Notes: a model not told the origin generated them from the sequence alone. DNA of 64,000 nucleotides from Candidatus Chlorohelix allophototropha (GCF_030389965.1 NZ_CP128399.1:1540934-1604933); one strand, 5' to 3'; shown: positions 50,583 through 59,716, counted from the first letter of the stretch. Numbers and translations: made by a program.

Positions 50583-51320
50583 ATGGGCAATAATATCGGC
50601 ATAATTATCGCGCTTTCCGTTGCGCTACCGATTGCTATTATCTTGATTGTATTTATCCCTATTTTACGCCGTAGCATGCGTAGTCGGCAGCTTTTAAATA
50701 CTGGCATGTCTGCTAACGGTACGATTGTTAAAGTTTGGCAAACCGGGCTATATGTGAATGAGCAACCCGAAATCGGAATGACTATTCAGGTTATGCCGCC
50801 AGATCGTCCCCCTTTTCAGGCGGAAGCACGCAAGATTGTGCCGATGATTCAGTTAGCGCAGGTGCAACCGGGGCAAATGGTCGAAGTAAAATATGACCCG
50901 AACGATACCAGCAAGGTCGCTTTGAGCGCGATTTTAAGCGGTGGTATGCCGGGTGGTATGGGCGGTATGCAAATGGCTGGTATGCAGATGAACGCACAGA
51001 TGGCTGCTCTTAGTCAGATTCCACCTGAACTTCAGCAGATTGTGATGCAGCAGAATACCCTCAGCGCTATGCTGTTTCAGAGCGGGCAGCCCGCTACCGC
51101 TCGTATTTTGGGCGTGCGCGATTACGGTGCGCCTTTGCCGGACGGCACCTCTCCCAAGATTTTTTCGTTGGAAGTGCAACCGTTTGGACAGCCTCCTTTC
51201 CAATCCGAGTCCTTTGCGCTCGTTTCTTACGCTTCACAGGCGAAATATAGCAGCGGTGCAATTATTCAAGTCAAGTTTGACCCCTCTAACTATAGCCGAG
51301 TCGCCATCGTTCCCTCCTGA
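50583..51320 (+). CDS. Membrane-anchored protein with two DUF3592-like domains
   Basis: The 245-residue protein has one N-terminal membrane helix (IGIIIALSVALPIAIILIVFI), then two related domains: GTIVKVWQTGLYV...PGQMVEVKYDPNDTSKVAL and ARILGVRDYGAPL...GAIIQVKFDPSNYSRVAI. They are joined by a Met/Gly-rich linker (GGMPGGMGGMQMAGMQMN). The domain also occurs singly at 44493. The gene lies 131 nt before a four-helix membrane protein and binding-protein pair, and may belong with them. RBS AGGAG at 9 nt. Confidence 0.78.
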   Translation: MGNNIGIIIALSVALPIAIILIVFIPILRRSMRSRQLLNTGMSANGTIVKVWQTGLYVNEQPEIGMTIQVMPPDRPPFQAEARKIVPMIQLAQVQPGQMVEVKYDPNDTSKVALSAILSGGMPGGMGGMQMAGMQMNAQMAALSQIPPELQQIVMQQNTLSAMLFQSGQPATARILGVRDYGAPLPDGTSPKIFSLEVQPFGQPPFQSESFALVSYASQAKYSSGAIIQVKFDPSNYSRVAIVPS

Positions 51321-51450
51321 AATGCTTTATAATAGGGGCTAATCTGGAGTAAGTTTGAGAATCGGGCTTTCGCTTAAGATTAAGTGCGGAAGCCCTGAAA
51401 ACTTTTCCCGCTTTCGTGTTTATTACCCCTCGAATTCAGGAGGACAGAGC

Positions 51451-52953
51451 TTGGCTGTCATTGCACCTCAGGCATCCGGAGCGCCTGCACCCGTAAAACC
51501 AGCCCGGACTGTAAAAAAGCGAAATCGAACACTGCGTCGCCAGATTTTATGGTTTCTGGGAGCTTGTGCGGCGCTGGCAGTTATCGCTTTTCTGGCAGTA
51601 ATCAGCGCGACCACCGCCCGTATCTCTACTTTCAACGAAATAGCCTCAATTGCAGTGCCTAGTATCAATGCCACCAACGATGCAACTCAGTTGCTTGCGG
51701 GTGAAGTTGAGAATACGGGCGAATATATTCTGGCGGATCAAGGCAAAGCTACTAGTTCCGCTCCCGGTGCGTCGGCTCCGGCTACTAACAAACAGTCCAT
51801 TCTTGCCAAAATCGAAGAGCAACGCGCCGCTTTTGATCTTGCCTTACAGCGCGGCTACAGCGCTCTGAGCAATTACAGCGGTTCGATTAAGCCCGATGCT
51901 TCTAAAGCATTGCTCTATATCAGCACTCGCTATGGGCGCTTACAGGATGCATTGGCGCAGGCGCGCGCCCTAACCGATAAAGGCGACCTTACCACTGCCA
52001 TTCAAGCTTTTCTGAACGGGCAAAATGATAACTACGAGCCGCTTTTTGCCAGTCTCTACTTCCTGCGTAGTGTTCACCAATCGCGCCTTGAAGAAGCCGA
52101 AAGCAGCGCGGTCTATTCTGCCGAGTTGCAGCAATATTTGGCGGTGGCGGCTACCATCATTTTTGGAGTCGGGCTGGTAGTAACTAACCTGTGGGTTACC
52201 TTCCGGGTGAAGCGTGTATTTGTGCCGCTGCTCAATCTGGCGCTGCTAATCGTGTTGATCTATTCGATTTTCCTATGGTCGGTGCTGTCCAATAGTCGCC
52301 GCGACCTGACGCAAGTGGTAGCTACCTATAACCGCACTGCCCTGCTCAGCGATTCCTTGACTTATATTACCGACGCTTCATCAGATCAGGTGCAATGGGT
52401 CATCAGCGGCAAGCAATTAGCGGGACAAACCGGGCTTGGTACGGGTGCACGAGACGAGATTTACAATCAAGATTTGAAAACACGGCTAGAGTTGCTGCTA
52501 TCCTTGCGCGCAAAAGACGGTACGTTATCGGTTGACCCTACGCAATTGGTAGATTGCCCCGCTTCTGCCACTTCACGTGCCAATTATAATTTCGAGGGAA
52601 ATATTGCTCAGTTGTGCCGCGAATTGCCTGCTTCATATAGCTCCAACAACCTGAACCAGTTTATCAAGGCGTACCGCGATTGGCTGACCATGCAGAGTCG
52701 CTTTAGCCCCTTAGTCACCTCTGGCAAAATTGATGAGGCGCTCACGCTTCGTTCTGGCGATGGGGCGAAAGCCTATACCCTCATGGCTGATAGTCTGAAC
52801 AAGGAACGCAACCTCAATATTCAAGATTACCGCAATCGTAGTCAGCAAGGCACGGACGGTTTGAGTTTCGCCACTCAACTTGCCTGGATTATCTATCCGG
52901 CGGCGTTGGCATTAGTGGCGGGTGGTTTGCTGGTTTGGCGCAGGGAATTTTAA
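51451..52953 (+). CDS. Four-TM protein with two extracellular four-helix-type loops (GlnX-like)
   Basis: The 500-residue protein starts with TTG 51451, 7 nt after AGGAGG (a TTG at 51355 is open but unsupported). After a basic N-terminus comes TM1 (about 28-52), an extracellular helical domain of about 175 residues (INATNDATQLLAGEVENTGEYILAD is 4HB/CHASE3-like), a TM2-TM3 hairpin (about 230-285), a second helical extracellular domain and TM4 at the C-terminus with only five residues beyond. No cytoplasmic output domain exists. It is followed 16 nt later by a binding-protein lipoprotein. Architecture and pairing resemble GlnX of the actinobacterial GlnH-GlnX-PknG sensor. Confidence 0.72.
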   Translation: MAVIAPQASGAPAPVKPARTVKKRNRTLRRQILWFLGACAALAVIAFLAVISATTARISTFNEIASIAVPSINATNDATQLLAGEVENTGEYILADQGKATSSAPGASAPATNKQSILAKIEEQRAAFDLALQRGYSALSNYSGSIKPDASKALLYISTRYGRLQDALAQARALTDKGDLTTAIQAFLNGQNDNYEPLFASLYFLRSVHQSRLEEAESSAVYSAELQQYLAVAATIIFGVGLVVTNLWVTFRVKRVFVPLLNLALLIVLIYSIFLWSVLSNSRRDLTQVVATYNRTALLSDSLTYITDASSDQVQWVISGKQLAGQTGLGTGARDEIYNQDLKTRLELLLSLRAKDGTLSVDPTQLVDCPASATSRANYNFEGNIAQLCRELPASYSSNNLNQFIKAYRDWLTMQSRFSPLVTSGKIDEALTLRSGDGAKAYTLMADSLNKERNLNIQDYRNRSQQGTDGLSFATQLAWIIYPAALALVAGGLLVWRREF

Positions 52954-52969
52954 GGGAGCGGAGGAATTT

Positions 52970-54280
52970 ATGGCAATGAAAAATCTGAAAAAACTTTCTC
53001 TGCTGTTTTTGCTATTACTGGTATTGCCGGGTTGCGGTGCGGCGGTTGGTAACGATATAACCCCCTCGAAGCGAGTTGAGGCTGTGGTTGCGCCTGACGT
53101 TGCGGTAAATTACGCGCCTGTCCAGCAAAACAGCGGGACTATTCGCATTTATTCCAGCTTACCTCTTACGGGCAGCAGTAAAGACCAGAGCCTGACTCTG
53201 ACTAATGCTATGCAAATGGCGTTGGAAGATGTTGGGGGACCTGATAAAACTATTAACGGGTTTAAGATTGACTTTGTAAGCCTCGATGATGCTACCGCGC
53301 AACGCGGGCAATGGGACGAAACCACCGAGAAAGCCAATGCTACACAAGCCGCCAATGACCCAGATGCGATGGTATATCTTGGACCTTACAATAGTGGCGC
53401 GGCGCAGGTGTCAATTCCGATTCTTAACCGCGCCGGGTTGCCGATTATTAGCCCTTCCAATACCTACCCCGGTTTGACGTTGGCAGTTGACGGTATCACC
53501 AAAGCAGGCGAGCCTGATAGCTTTTATCCCACCAAAACCCGCAACTATTTTCGAGTGGTAGCGCGGGACGATTGGCAGGGACCTGCAATTGTGCTGTTCG
53601 CCAGCGAAGTGCTAAAGGTAAAACGATTGTATCTGGTCAGCGAACCAGACCTCTTTGTTTACGGCAAGGGGCTAACCGATTCGGTAGAACGAGAAGCTCC
53701 CAAACATGGTATCTCTATCGTGGGACGCTCTACCGTTCAGGAACGTGCTGCGGATTATCGCGACCTCGCCCGCAAGATTCGCGATACCAACCCCGATATG
53801 GTTTTCTTTGGTGGAACTGCCCAGAACCAACCCGGTCGGTTACTGGCAGATGTGCGTGCTGCCGGAGTGACTGTCCCCTTTATGGGTGGCGATGGTCTCA
53901 ATAACCCCGCTTTCCTGAAAAGCGCCGGTGTTGCCGGTGAGGTGGAAACCTATAGCTCTATCAGCGGCGTGCCGGAAAACCTATTACCCGCCAAAGGTCA
54001 GGATTTTCTTAAACGCTATCGCGCTCGTTTCGGTGCCCCCACCAACTACACCTTGCACGGCTACGAGGTGATGTCGGTGGCGTTGAATGCTATCAAGAAA
54101 GCAGGGAAAAAAGATCGGAAGGCGATTCTGGACGCTATTGCCACTACTAAAAACTTTGATGGGGTGTTGGGGCGTTGGAGTTTTGATGCAAACGGCGATA
54201 CCGACTTAACCGATTTCGCCATCTATCAGATTAAGGACGGGCTTTTCGTTTACCAACGGCAGATCAAGCCGGGCAAATAG
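52970..54280 (+). CDS. LivJ-type substrate-binding lipoprotein without ABC permease
   Basis: The 436-residue protein has a lipoprotein signal (lipobox LPGC) and a Peripla_BP_6 (branched-chain amino acid/amide-type) fold: IRIYSSLPLTGSSKDQSLTLTNAMQMALE, then DATAQRGQWDETTEKANA, YLGPYNSGAAQVSIPILNRAGLPIISPSNTYPG, and NPDMVFFGGTAQNQPGRLLADVRAAG. No liv permease or ATPase follows; instead it is coupled to the four-TM protein. GGAGG precedes ATG 52970. A sensing role with the four-TM partner is more likely than import; ligand unknown. Confidence 0.88.
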   Translation: MAMKNLKKLSLLFLLLLVLPGCGAAVGNDITPSKRVEAVVAPDVAVNYAPVQQNSGTIRIYSSLPLTGSSKDQSLTLTNAMQMALEDVGGPDKTINGFKIDFVSLDDATAQRGQWDETTEKANATQAANDPDAMVYLGPYNSGAAQVSIPILNRAGLPIISPSNTYPGLTLAVDGITKAGEPDSFYPTKTRNYFRVVARDDWQGPAIVLFASEVLKVKRLYLVSEPDLFVYGKGLTDSVEREAPKHGISIVGRSTVQERAADYRDLARKIRDTNPDMVFFGGTAQNQPGRLLADVRAAGVTVPFMGGDGLNNPAFLKSAGVAGEVETYSSISGVPENLLPAKGQDFLKRYRARFGAPTNYTLHGYEVMSVALNAIKKAGKKDRKAILDAIATTKNFDGVLGRWSFDANGDTDLTDFAIYQIKDGLFVYQRQIKPGK

Positions 54281-56122: not shown

Positions 56123-57328
56123 ATGAATCTTACCAAGTCCCTGTACAAAAAGTTCGGTCTTGGATTGGCGGTTGTGATGGGTTCTGCCATGATGCTAGGC
56201 GCTTGTGGCGACAACACTGCCACTCCTGTCCCGGCTGCTACCACTGCCGCTGCTACCACTGCCGCAGTCGCTACTACTGCTTCTGGCGCTACCGGAGCAA
56301 AAGCCGACCTCTCTGCGGCTAAAGGCTGCAAGAACGTTGCAATTCTGCTGCCTGAGACCGATTCTTCATTCCGCTGGGAAGCCTTAGACCGCCCACTGCT
56401 TCAGCAGGAAATTGCTGCCGCTATCCCCGGCGCTACCATTCAATATTCCAATGCCAGTAACAATGCTGATACTCAGCAGAACCAAGCTGAAGCTGCACTA
56501 ACCAAAGGCGCTTGCATTTTGGTAGTAGGCGCAAAAGACGGTGACAAAGCTTCCGCCATCGTGCAGAAAGCTAAAGCCGCCAAAGTGCCGGTTATCGCTT
56601 ACGACCGCTTGATTCAAGACAATGACCTCGCTTACTACGTCTCCTTCGACAATGTGAAGGTGGGCGAGTTGCAGGGTCAGTGGCTGGCTGACCAATACAA
56701 AGCCGGTAACTACGGTCTGAAAAAGGGCGCGAAACTGGCGATGATCAACGGTGGTCAGACCGACAACAACGCGCTGCTTTTCCGCCAAGGCGCTCTCAAT
56801 AAGCTGAAACCTCTGGTTGACAGCGGCGACTTGACCTTGGTTTACGATCAGTACACCCCGGATTGGGACAATGCCAAAGCCCAAACCTTGATGGAAGGCG
56901 TTTTGACTGCTCAGAAGAATGACCTCCAGATCGCTTACGTTGCTAACGACGGTATGGCTAACACTGTTATCGCCGCGCTACGTGCCCAGAAGTTGAACGG
57001 TAAAGTACCTGTTACCGGTCAGGATGCTTCTGATGATGGTATCAAGAATATCATCACCGGCGATCAGGGTATGACTGTTTACAAAGCCATCCCGCTAGAA
57101 GCCAAAGCGACAGGTCAATTGGTAGCCGCTCTTGCCGCTGGTACAGACCCCGGTAGCATTATAAATGGCAAGACCAAGACCAAAGGTGGCGTAGATGTTC
57201 CGTCCGTGCTAGCGGTTCCTGTAACCGTAACTAAAGACAACATCGTCTCCACTGTGTTCAAAGACGGTTTCGTCAAGAAAGAAAATGCCTGCAAAGGTCT
57301 TCCCGCTGGTACCGGTGGTATCTGCTAA
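56123..57328 (+). CDS. Sugar ABC transporter substrate-binding lipoprotein (CUT2)
   Basis: The 401-residue protein has lipobox LGAC, an Ala/Thr/Pro-rich linker and a periplasmic-binding fold like XylF: KNVAILLPETDSSFRWEALDRPLL, ALTKGACILVVGAKDGDKASAIVQKAKAAKVPVIAYDRLI, and QIAYVANDGMANTVIAALRAQKLNGKVPVTGQDAS. A xylose/aldose specificity is suggested by this resemblance but not shown. Followed by its ATPase and permease after a terminator-like hairpin, which would give more binding protein than membrane parts. RBS AAGGAGG. Confidence 0.92.
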   Translation: MNLTKSLYKKFGLGLAVVMGSAMMLGACGDNTATPVPAATTAAATTAAVATTASGATGAKADLSAAKGCKNVAILLPETDSSFRWEALDRPLLQQEIAAAIPGATIQYSNASNNADTQQNQAEAALTKGACILVVGAKDGDKASAIVQKAKAAKVPVIAYDRLIQDNDLAYYVSFDNVKVGELQGQWLADQYKAGNYGLKKGAKLAMINGGQTDNNALLFRQGALNKLKPLVDSGDLTLVYDQYTPDWDNAKAQTLMEGVLTAQKNDLQIAYVANDGMANTVIAALRAQKLNGKVPVTGQDASDDGIKNIITGDQGMTVYKAIPLEAKATGQLVAALAAGTDPGSIINGKTKTKGGVDVPSVLAVPVTVTKDNIVSTVFKDGFVKKENACKGLPAGTGGIC

Positions 57329-57683: not shown

Positions 57684-58481
57684 ATGAGTGAGAAAGTAAC
57701 TGCTACAACTGCCGGTATGGGGGTACCGCGCTTGCAGCTAAAAGGCATAAATAAAACCTTCGGTGCGGTGCGCGCGCTGATGAATGTAGATTTTGAAGCC
57801 TATGCCGGGGAGGTGGTGGGGCTTGTTGGTGACAACGGCGCGGGCAAATCCACCCTCATTAAAGTAATTTCAGGTGTCTATATCCCGGATTCCGGCGACT
57901 ATTTTATAGAAGGAGAAAGTGTTCATATAACTTCTCCTCAAGATGCCAACCACCATGGGATTGAAACGGTGTACCAAGACCTAGCGCTTTGCGATAATCT
58001 CGACGTGGTGGCTAATCTCTGGCTTGGTCGCGAAGAGCTACTGATGGGTACTCTTAATGAAGTAGAGATGGAACGGCTCACCCTTAATGTATTGCGCACA
58101 CTGGATGTGAAAATCCCTTCGGTGCGAGTGCCGGTTGCGGCACTCTCCGGTGGGCAGCGTCAATCTATCGCTGTTGCCAAGACCATCCTGCGCAAGCCCA
58201 AAGTGGTTTTGCTGGATGAGCCTACCGCTGCGCTCGGTGTCGCTCAAACCAAACAGGTTTTGAACCTGATCCGTCGCTTGCGTGAGCAAGGTCTGGCGGT
58301 AGTGGTTATCTCCCACAACCTCCATGATGTATTTGAGGTAGTGGATCGGGCGATTGTGATGCGCTTAGGACGGCGCTCTGCCACCTTTGATATTAAGAAC
58401 ACAACCCCTGAAAAAGTGGTGGGAGCAATTACCGGAGCCGAATTCGGTGATATTCCGGCGGGTACGGAGGCAGAGGTATAA
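57684..58481 (+). CDS. Sugar ABC transporter ATP-binding protein, single-domain type
   Basis: The 265-residue protein is one nucleotide-binding domain: Walker A GDNGAGKST near 46, Q-loop VYQDLALC, signature LSGGQRQ, Walker B VVLLDEPTAALG and the H-loop VISHN. CUT2 systems usually use a double-domain ATPase of about 500 residues (XylG, RbsA); the single-domain form is like FrcA and should act as a homodimer. It is coupled to the permease by a 2-nt gap. Confidence 0.93.
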   Translation: MSEKVTATTAGMGVPRLQLKGINKTFGAVRALMNVDFEAYAGEVVGLVGDNGAGKSTLIKVISGVYIPDSGDYFIEGESVHITSPQDANHHGIETVYQDLALCDNLDVVANLWLGREELLMGTLNEVEMERLTLNVLRTLDVKIPSVRVPVAALSGGQRQSIAVAKTILRKPKVVLLDEPTAALGVAQTKQVLNLIRRLREQGLAVVVISHNLHDVFEVVDRAIVMRLGRRSATFDIKNTTPEKVVGAITGAEFGDIPAGTEAEV

Positions 58482-58483
58482 CT

Positions 58484-59716
58484 ATGAGTAATGAACTCAA
58501 AACCGAAAGTGCGGTAGTAGAAAAATTACCCGGTCTTGCCGGAACAGTGCCACCGCCACCGGCGGAAAAATTTAGCATAAAAGCGTTGTTGCGCCAAGAT
58601 TTAGGTTTTCTACCGGTGCTGTTTACCTTACTGATTATCATAATCTACTTCCAGATTTCTACCAACGGTATCTTCCTCGATCCACGTAATATCTCGAACC
58701 TGATTCAACAGGTGGTCTCGGTCGGTATTATTGGTATCGCCGCGATTCTGGTACTGTTACTCGGTGAAATCGACCTAAGCCTTGCGGCGGTTTCACAGGC
58801 TTGTGCGGCAGTAACGGCAGTGCTGTCGGTTTATCAAGACTGGAATCCTTGGCTGGCAATTCTCGCTGGCTTGGTGGCGGGCGCTGTTATCGGGTTAGTC
58901 AACGGCTTCTTTATCGCAGTGCTGCGCGTCCCCTCCTTCATTGTCACTCTTGCCGGTTCTATTTTCTACGCCGGTATCCTGTTGCTGGTAATGGGTCGCC
59001 AAACTACCCTAACGGTGCGCGATCCGGTTATTCGTGACCTCGCTCCTAACTATATGGATACTATCGCCGGTTGGTTGGTTCCTTTAGTTGGTATTGGCTT
59101 GTATATCGGGTTTGTCCTTTTGGAACAACGCCGCCGCGCTACAATTGGTTTAAAAACCAAAGCCCCCATACGGTTAGGCATTCAGTTTGGGGTGGCTATA
59201 GTAATACCGGTAGGTATTATCTGGCTACTTCAGTCTTATAATGGTGTACCGATTGCCGGTTTAATCTGGATTGGGCTGGTTGTTGCTATCTGGGTATTAC
59301 TAACTAGAACTACCTATGGGCGACACCTTTATGCGGTGGGTGGTAATAGTGAAGCGGCTCGCCGCGCCGGTATCAATACCACTATGATGAAGCTTTCCAT
59401 TTTCGCGTTGGCTTCTACGCTGGCGGCGTTCGCTGGAATTATGCTGTTGTCGCGTAGCACCGCTGCTGCCACCCAGATAGACTCTACTTTGTTGTTGCGC
59501 GCTATTGCGGCGGCAGTAATCGGGGGGGTTAGTTTGTTCGGTGGACGCGGCTCAATCTGGGCAGTTGTATTGGGCGCGTTGGTAATCGGCAGCCTTGAAA
59601 ATGGTTTGACTTTGCAAGATCAAGAACAAAGCATAAAGAACGTTGTAGAGGGCACAGTCTTGATCTTGGCGGTAACTGCCGATGCGTTGGCACGGCGTTC
59701 TTCCAATCGTCGCTAA
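58484..59716 (+). CDS. Sugar ABC transporter permease (XylH/RbsC-like)
   Basis: The 410-residue protein has about ten hydrophobic helices and the CUT2 permease pattern: NLIQQVVSVGIIGIAAILVLLLGEIDLSLAAVS, GLVNGFFIAVLRVPSFIVTLAG, and the EAA-like loop YAVGGNSEAARRAGINTTMMKLSIFA. GGVSLFGGRGSIWAVVLGALVIG follows. It should form the transmembrane channel as homodimer with the ATPase. About 45 cytoplasmic residues precede TM1. RBS AGAGG. Confidence 0.93.
   Translation: MSNELKTESAVVEKLPGLAGTVPPPPAEKFSIKALLRQDLGFLPVLFTLLIIIIYFQISTNGIFLDPRNISNLIQQVVSVGIIGIAAILVLLLGEIDLSLAAVSQACAAVTAVLSVYQDWNPWLAILAGLVAGAVIGLVNGFFIAVLRVPSFIVTLAGSIFYAGILLLVMGRQTTLTVRDPVIRDLAPNYMDTIAGWLVPLVGIGLYIGFVLLEQRRRATIGLKTKAPIRLGIQFGVAIVIPVGIIWLLQSYNGVPIAGLIWIGLVVAIWVLLTRTTYGRHLYAVGGNSEAARRAGINTTMMKLSIFALASTLAAFAGIMLLSRSTAAATQIDSTLLLRAIAAAVIGGVSLFGGRGSIWAVVLGALVIGSLENGLTLQDQEQSIKNVVEGTVLILAVTADALARRSSNRR

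Follow-up and report, generated by a model that had tools for sequence, protein, structure and literature searches.

A probable sensor-swapped GlnX-PknG signalling module in 'Candidatus Chlorohelix allophototropha'

To what does a LivJ-type lipoprotein report when its gene directly follows that of a four-transmembrane (four-TM) protein, with no permease or ATPase gene next to the pair? The question is raised by a 64,000-nucleotide stretch of the genome of 'Candidatus Chlorohelix allophototropha' (C1:1540934-1604933, here the window). An earlier note on this DNA had likened the pair to GlnX-GlnH and regarded its output partner as unknown. In mycobacteria and corynebacteria PknG, the kinase of the GlnH-GlnX-PknG cascade, acts as a central switch of metabolism. 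The source genome comprises 6.09 Mb in five contigs, the largest of 2.96 and 2.45 Mb, and two chromosomes have been described for strain L227-S17 (PMC10972752). Our answer, to which we give a probability of roughly 0.68, is a sensor-swapped GlnX-PknG signalling module, differing from the known ones in the class of its substrate-binding protein (SBP), its unlinked kinase and probably its target; homology and parts are well supported, and the wiring is what we infer from them. The two genes are as follows.

51451..52953, + strand: gene of the GlnX-like four-TM protein, 500 residues from TTG 51451 (reading frame open from 51355), with tandem extracytoplasmic four-helix bundles predicted and the C-terminus WRREF

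52970..54280, + strand: gene of the LivJ-type (Peripla_BP_6, type I) SBP lipoprotein, 436 residues from ATG 52970, with the lipobox LPGC

The four-TM protein as a relative of GlnX

The four-TM protein matched the NCBIfam GlnX model NF058618 with an E-value of 5.7e-13 (48.8 bits). Its family, f1, consists of the source genome, three genomes of a sister genus (G083, G084 and G085) and one of a third genus (G086); the same model matched the three sister-genus orthologues (E 1e-13 to 1e-14) and the G086 GlnX (E 7e-29). A family profile was built from the window protein and the three sister-genus orthologues and run on 564 open reading frames (ORFs), including four-helix-bundle (4HB) receptor-type look-alikes that the GlnX model matches weakly. 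Past its training set it retrieved 14 proteins, down to an E-value of 2.5e-5, all of them GlnX proteins (13 in loci of family f30, probably Ktedonobacteria, and the G086 GlnX), and it matched none of the look-alike controls at E <= 10. A PDB search with the window protein as single query returned nothing, and the single query P0002 missed the G086 GlnX, which was recovered by a 15-row alignment. Judged by its sequence, the product of 51451-52953 is truly related to GlnX, if divergent, and lies outside the membership as NCBIfam draws it.

The anatomy from which the earlier note had argued was borne out, and the resemblance to GlnX-GlnH was upheld by homology, fold and the pknG-operon neighbourhoods described below. 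Hydropathy, by which TM segments were called, gave four of them, with extracytoplasmic domains of ~175 and ~190 residues and cytoplasmic parts limited to an N-tail of ~30, a loop of ~9 and a C-tail of ~9 residues. The AlphaFold2 model of the protein, of moderate confidence (predicted local distance difference test, pLDDT, 62.9), consists of two helical bundles, each framed by TM helices (helices 58-133, 140-173, 182-208 and 212-285 in the first, 291-355, 363-381, 431-455 and 459-531 in the second). The protein thus has the features of a GlnX: four TM segments, two extracytoplasmic four-helix bundles and essentially no cytoplasmic output domain. Foldseek with this model found no significant match. 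Via structural re-alignment, the first bundle, which the 4HB matches mainly concern (Z about 15), was matched to LytS-N of the XylFII-LytS complex (Z 15.3, root-mean-square deviation 1.9, 121 residues) and to the ligand-binding domain of MCP2201 (Z 15.2). Matches to LytS-N and MCP2201 were also reported for Corynebacterium glutamicum GlnX, whose authors took XylFII-LytS as their model for GlnH docking (PMC9769921). Because helical bundles match easily, we consider these matches supportive only.

An acidic-aromatic pair, [DE][FY], ends the GlnX proteins of the same family, of f30 and most of the canonical ones of Chloroflexota, the tail reading WRREF in the window and f1, R-x-[KRN]-[DE]-F in f30 and PRI-x-EY in the canonical proteins. 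Loop residue R287 (ORF numbering) is invariant across 15 proteins, and in a comparison of the window protein with f30 GlnX (a small sample) the scores of loop and tail are slightly higher than those of the remainder, with the exception of TM3. In actinobacteria, the termini of GlnX have been proposed to contact the tetratricopeptide repeat (TPR) domain of PknG (PMC6069109). The C-tail and loop may carry the signal here, and their conserved residues are direct candidates for contact with PknG.

The lipoprotein and its linkage to the GlnX-like gene

The lipoprotein gene starts 16 nt downstream of the GlnX-like gene, directly after it as the earlier note had it. Its product matched Pfam Peripla_BP_6 (E 4.5e-41) and pneumococcal LivJ (PDB 4gnr, E 4.3e-25), and a Pfam scan found no match to SBP_bac_3, the class of GlnH, at E <= 1. 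The supposed difference from GlnH was confirmed, since the SBP of the canonical Chloroflexota GlnX-GlnH locus belongs to SBP_bac_3 (found in G484; the SBP of G363 was called by its similarity to that of G484). Residues S158, S179, T181 and D324 (ORF numbering) are conserved at the positions by which LivJ contacts the amino-acid backbone; as these are kept, the ligand is likely to be an alpha-amino acid. XylFII is a type I binding protein like the SBP here. An AlphaFold2 model of the SBP from four sequences was poor (pLDDT 50) and was not used.

In the sister genus (G083, G084 and G085, all Chloroflexi metagenome-assembled genomes) the GlnX-like gene is again followed directly by the SBP gene, with identities to the window proteins of 49-50% and 56-57%, respectively. 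Since the pair is kept in three genomes of another genus, chance is excluded. The three genomes share one context, with HtrA-type protease and MgtC-like neighbours (named by eye from sequence), and the context in the window is different, which indicates that the linkage outlives general synteny. Unlinked genes in relatives, which the earlier note would have counted against a pair, were not encountered wherever the SBP clade occurs. The tree groups the four GlnX-linked SBPs in a single clade, separate from the SBPs of transporters (support 94/97); most simply read, a duplicated LivJ was captured by GlnX as its sensor.

Neither a permease nor an ATPase gene was found next to the pair, in agreement with the earlier note. 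The ABC genes at 57684-59716 come after a binding protein gene of their own (56123-57328), and between them and the pair stands a ROK regulator gene on the opposite strand. No LivHMGF is encoded in the window with the SBP, and a liv permease adjacent to it was rejected as a candidate, the liv sets of the genome adjoining their own SBP genes.

Two more Peripla_BP_6 lipoproteins without an adjoining permease or ATPase are encoded in the genome (L037:6537-7907 and L038:6976-8226, at C1 ~366.5k and ~1278k). Furthermore, L039:5944-9318 (- strand, C2 ~273.9-277.3k) encodes a chain of 1124 residues combining a Ser/Thr kinase, a TM segment, WD40 repeats and Peripla_BP_6; this is a receptor kinase with a LivJ-type sensor and possibly a covalent counterpart of the SBP-GlnX-kinase idea.

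PknG in the source genome and across Chloroflexota

A PknG orthologue is encoded at C2:570607-572865, on the other chromosome from the pair. It contains both kinase and TPR domains (Pkinase 115 bits, PknG_TPR 83.7 bits), its best PDB match is M. tuberculosis PknG (2pzi, E 1.6e-54), and it scored 1169 bits with a PknG profile in which the protein itself is included. The genome of the GlnX-like gene thus holds a PknG, and we consider it a strong candidate for the output partner. The N-terminal rubredoxin module of PknG (PF16919) had no match in the genome, and the orthologue has three zinc ribbons instead; the kinase was missed by the rubredoxin model and found by the TPR model. Corynebacterium PknG is also without the rubredoxin module. 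Two CxxCG motifs, which are present in the orthologue, are an accepted alternative to it (PMC8546545).

The kinase gene lies in a cassette of five genes (L074:4151-11225, C2 ~567.2-574.2k) encoding a PP2C phosphatase, PknG, a VWA protein, a zinc-ribbon FHA protein and a 403-residue protein. Zinc ribbons occur in three of these five proteins. The cassette, which does not include glnX, is kept in all five f1 genomes, each having one GlnX and one such cassette.

A survey of 400 Chloroflexota genomes, in which the best few candidates per genome were scored (GlnX above 40 bits, full-length PknG above 300 bits), found GlnX in 16, PknG in 14 and both in 13 (Fisher p ~9e-21, with cut-offs set after looking and kinship uncorrected). 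The mismatches are G373, where the contig ends at PknG, G391, where it begins in VWA, G363, with a PknG fragment on the same contig, and G300, with a broken GlnX on a 5-kb contig. Both proteins occur in at least four families. GlnX homologues lie directly inside pknG operons at a minimum of a dozen Chloroflexota loci, in the order PknG-PP2C-VWA-GlnX-GlnH in G484 and G363, GlnX-PknG-PP2C-VWA in G286, and PknG-VWA-GlnX in about a dozen f30 loci. The axis may include VWA as well, which in f30 stands between kinase and GlnX. A PknG homologue has been noted in Ktedonobacter racemifer (PMC8546545). Three f30 genomes (G460, G470 and G475; L080-L092) have two PknG-GlnX-type loci each, most of them PknG-VWA-GlnX without an SBP gene. 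The survey that the earlier note had proposed thus returned both a pair conserved in the sister genus and co-occurrence of GlnX with PknG.

Proposed mechanism, its rivals and the neighbouring genes

With the GlnH-GlnX-PknG(-OdhI/GarA) cascade of Corynebacterium and Mycobacterium (PMC6069109, PMC9769921, PMC8546545) the source genome shares a four-TM GlnX with two extracytoplasmic 4HB domains and tiny cytoplasmic parts, an SBP gene adjoining glnX, a PknG with kinase and TPR domains, and an FHA protein gene. It differs in that the SBP is of Peripla_BP_6 (type I) rather than SBP_bac_3, in that the glnX-SBP pair and pknG are on different chromosomes, in that the pknG cassette includes PP2C, VWA and zinc-ribbon proteins, and in that OdhA was not found and the N-terminal metal module of PknG is not the Pfam rubredoxin. 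XylFII-LytS of Clostridium beijerinckii (PDB 5xsj; PMC9769921) offers the likeness of a binding protein docked on an extracytoplasmic four-helix bundle, seen there and supposed here, whereas LytS, a histidine kinase, carries an output domain itself, the ligand is a sugar and each chain has a single bundle. The LivJ/LivHMGF branched-chain amino-acid ABC importer (HAAT family) shares the sequence family of the SBP, which here lacks an adjoining permease or ATPase, is linked to a signal transducer and belongs to a separate clade. The f30 operons share the GlnX homologue and the orthologous PknG and VWA, and differ in having GlnX inside the pknG operon.

How GlnX senses its binding protein and signals to PknG still awaits demonstration (PMC9769921). 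In the mechanism proposed here we infer the contacts of SBP with GlnX and of GlnX with PknG, as well as the ligand, the target and the direction in which regulation runs. Anchored on the outside of the cytoplasmic membrane, the LivJ-type lipoprotein would bind a small ligand, probably an alpha-amino acid, and dock on the paired four-helix bundles of the GlnX-like protein. The helices running without a break from the bundles into the membrane would relay its ligand state to the cytoplasm, where the short loop and the acidic-aromatic C-tail would bind the PknG-type Ser/Thr kinase via its TPR domain and switch it. PknG would in turn phosphorylate a target, for which the zinc-ribbon FHA protein encoded in the same cassette is a plausible candidate, and the neighbouring PP2C phosphatase would reset the switch.

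A broader proposal, to which we give even odds, is that GlnX is a general membrane adaptor through which unrelated SBP classes (SBP_bac_3, a recruited LivJ, or none) drive PknG, that a duplicated transporter LivJ was captured as sensor in the phototroph lineage, and that the kinase has a target other than OdhA. A natural swap of the SBP fold, with GlnX and PknG kept, would separate the outside from the inside needs of GlnX. The GlnX-PknG axis, so far described mostly from actinobacteria, is also carried by these findings into several families of Chloroflexota and into a phototroph apparently without OdhA.

Several observations weigh against the sensor-swapped module. The full-length identity of the GlnX-like protein to f30 GlnX is only 15-19%, and its NF058618 score is below the model's cut-off. 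Within its own genome the closest paralogue of the SBP is the LivJ belonging to a complete liv operon (C1:285.6-291.5k, with orthologous operons in relatives), with which it shares 58.5% identity and the same conserved ligand-contact residues. The sister-genus SBPs are without a lipobox cysteine at the expected place, the partnership of SBP and GlnX is argued from gene linkage, and no SBP gene adjoins GlnX in G086, which has both GlnX and PknG, or in the f30 operons; the SBP is thus not essential to the GlnX-PknG axis. The lipoprotein could be a second LivJ feeding the LivHMGF of that operon, its place by the GlnX-like gene being secondary and GlnX sensing directly or without an SBP. Escherichia coli LivJ and LivK share one transporter in this way. 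Here the adjacency is kept in two genera despite different surroundings, the GlnX-linked SBPs form the separate clade described above, and in those f1 genomes that were inspected a LivJ gene already comes with the transporter, which together make this reading unlikely. The earlier note had raised the use of the lipoprotein by a liv set elsewhere: every liv-type permease set found in the genome has its own binding protein gene alongside, which answers that concern in part, and the closeness to a transporter LivJ leaves room for double use. In G086, an SBP with an extra N-terminal region (L157:5767-7836) and a protein encoded near the GlnX gene (L118:13292-14482), the latter with no Pfam match, share an 'FxxLWxRTDxxVA'-like extracytoplasmic stretch.

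Other observations bear on the output. The glnX-like gene and pknG are not in one operon (C1 and C2) and are unlinked in five of five f1 genomes, and the C-terminal domain of OxoGdeHyase (E1o; PF16870) was not found in the genome, seven of 14 control genomes being positive. The latter suggests that the source genome has no conventional 2-oxoglutarate dehydrogenase, and OdhA, the usual downstream target, is probably absent; the FHA protein, if it is a substrate, must therefore act elsewhere. Next in order, and likewise improbable, is a reading in which SBP and GlnX cooperate and the output is another kinase, the cassette VWA protein or chemoreceptor-type machinery. Besides the lack of linkage to pknG, it is favoured by several other Ser/Thr kinases in the genome and by the position of VWA in f30, where GlnX may act on VWA first. 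It is opposed by the near-perfect co-occurrence of GlnX and PknG in the phylum, including the five f1 genomes, and by the comparison of the window protein with f30 GlnX, in which loop and C-tail rank with the better-conserved parts.

The weakest rival takes the four-TM protein for a common four-helix-bundle protein of the membrane that resembles GlnX in fold alone and has an unrelated SBP for a neighbour. It might draw on the commonness of 4HB domains, the ease with which helical folds match and a score far under the NF058618 membership cut-off of 250 bits, and is strongly disfavoured, indeed very improbable, given a family profile that selects GlnX proteins and none of the look-alikes, a single copy beside one PknG in each f1 genome and the conserved SBP linkage.

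In the ORF scan of the window, the pair's reading frames (51355-52953 and 52922-54280) follow a third on the + strand (50583-51320), and the following features complete the locus.

50583..51320, + strand: gene of a protein with one TM segment and a DUF3592 match below threshold, next to the pair on its upstream side

51438..51443, + strand: likely ribosome-binding site (RBS) of the glnX-like gene by sequence, AGGAGG, 7 nt 5' of TTG 51451

52956..52965 (approximate), + strand: likely RBS of the SBP gene by sequence, GGAGCGGAGG, inside the 16-nt gap past the glnX-like stop

The DUF3592 label is weak, as the match covers 24 residues at 23.7 bits against a Pfam cut-off of 25.3. The earlier note had counted this gene as a member of the module; it was rejected as a third component because no homologue lies beside the pair in the three sister-genus genomes, and it probably stands outside the module. 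Promoter and terminator scans gave chance-level results only. The most likely start of the GlnX-like protein is TTG 51451, behind AGGAGG, and that of the SBP is most likely ATG 52970, behind GGAGCGGAGG; the placing of the latter RBS within the 16-nt gap suggests that both genes are carried on one transcript.

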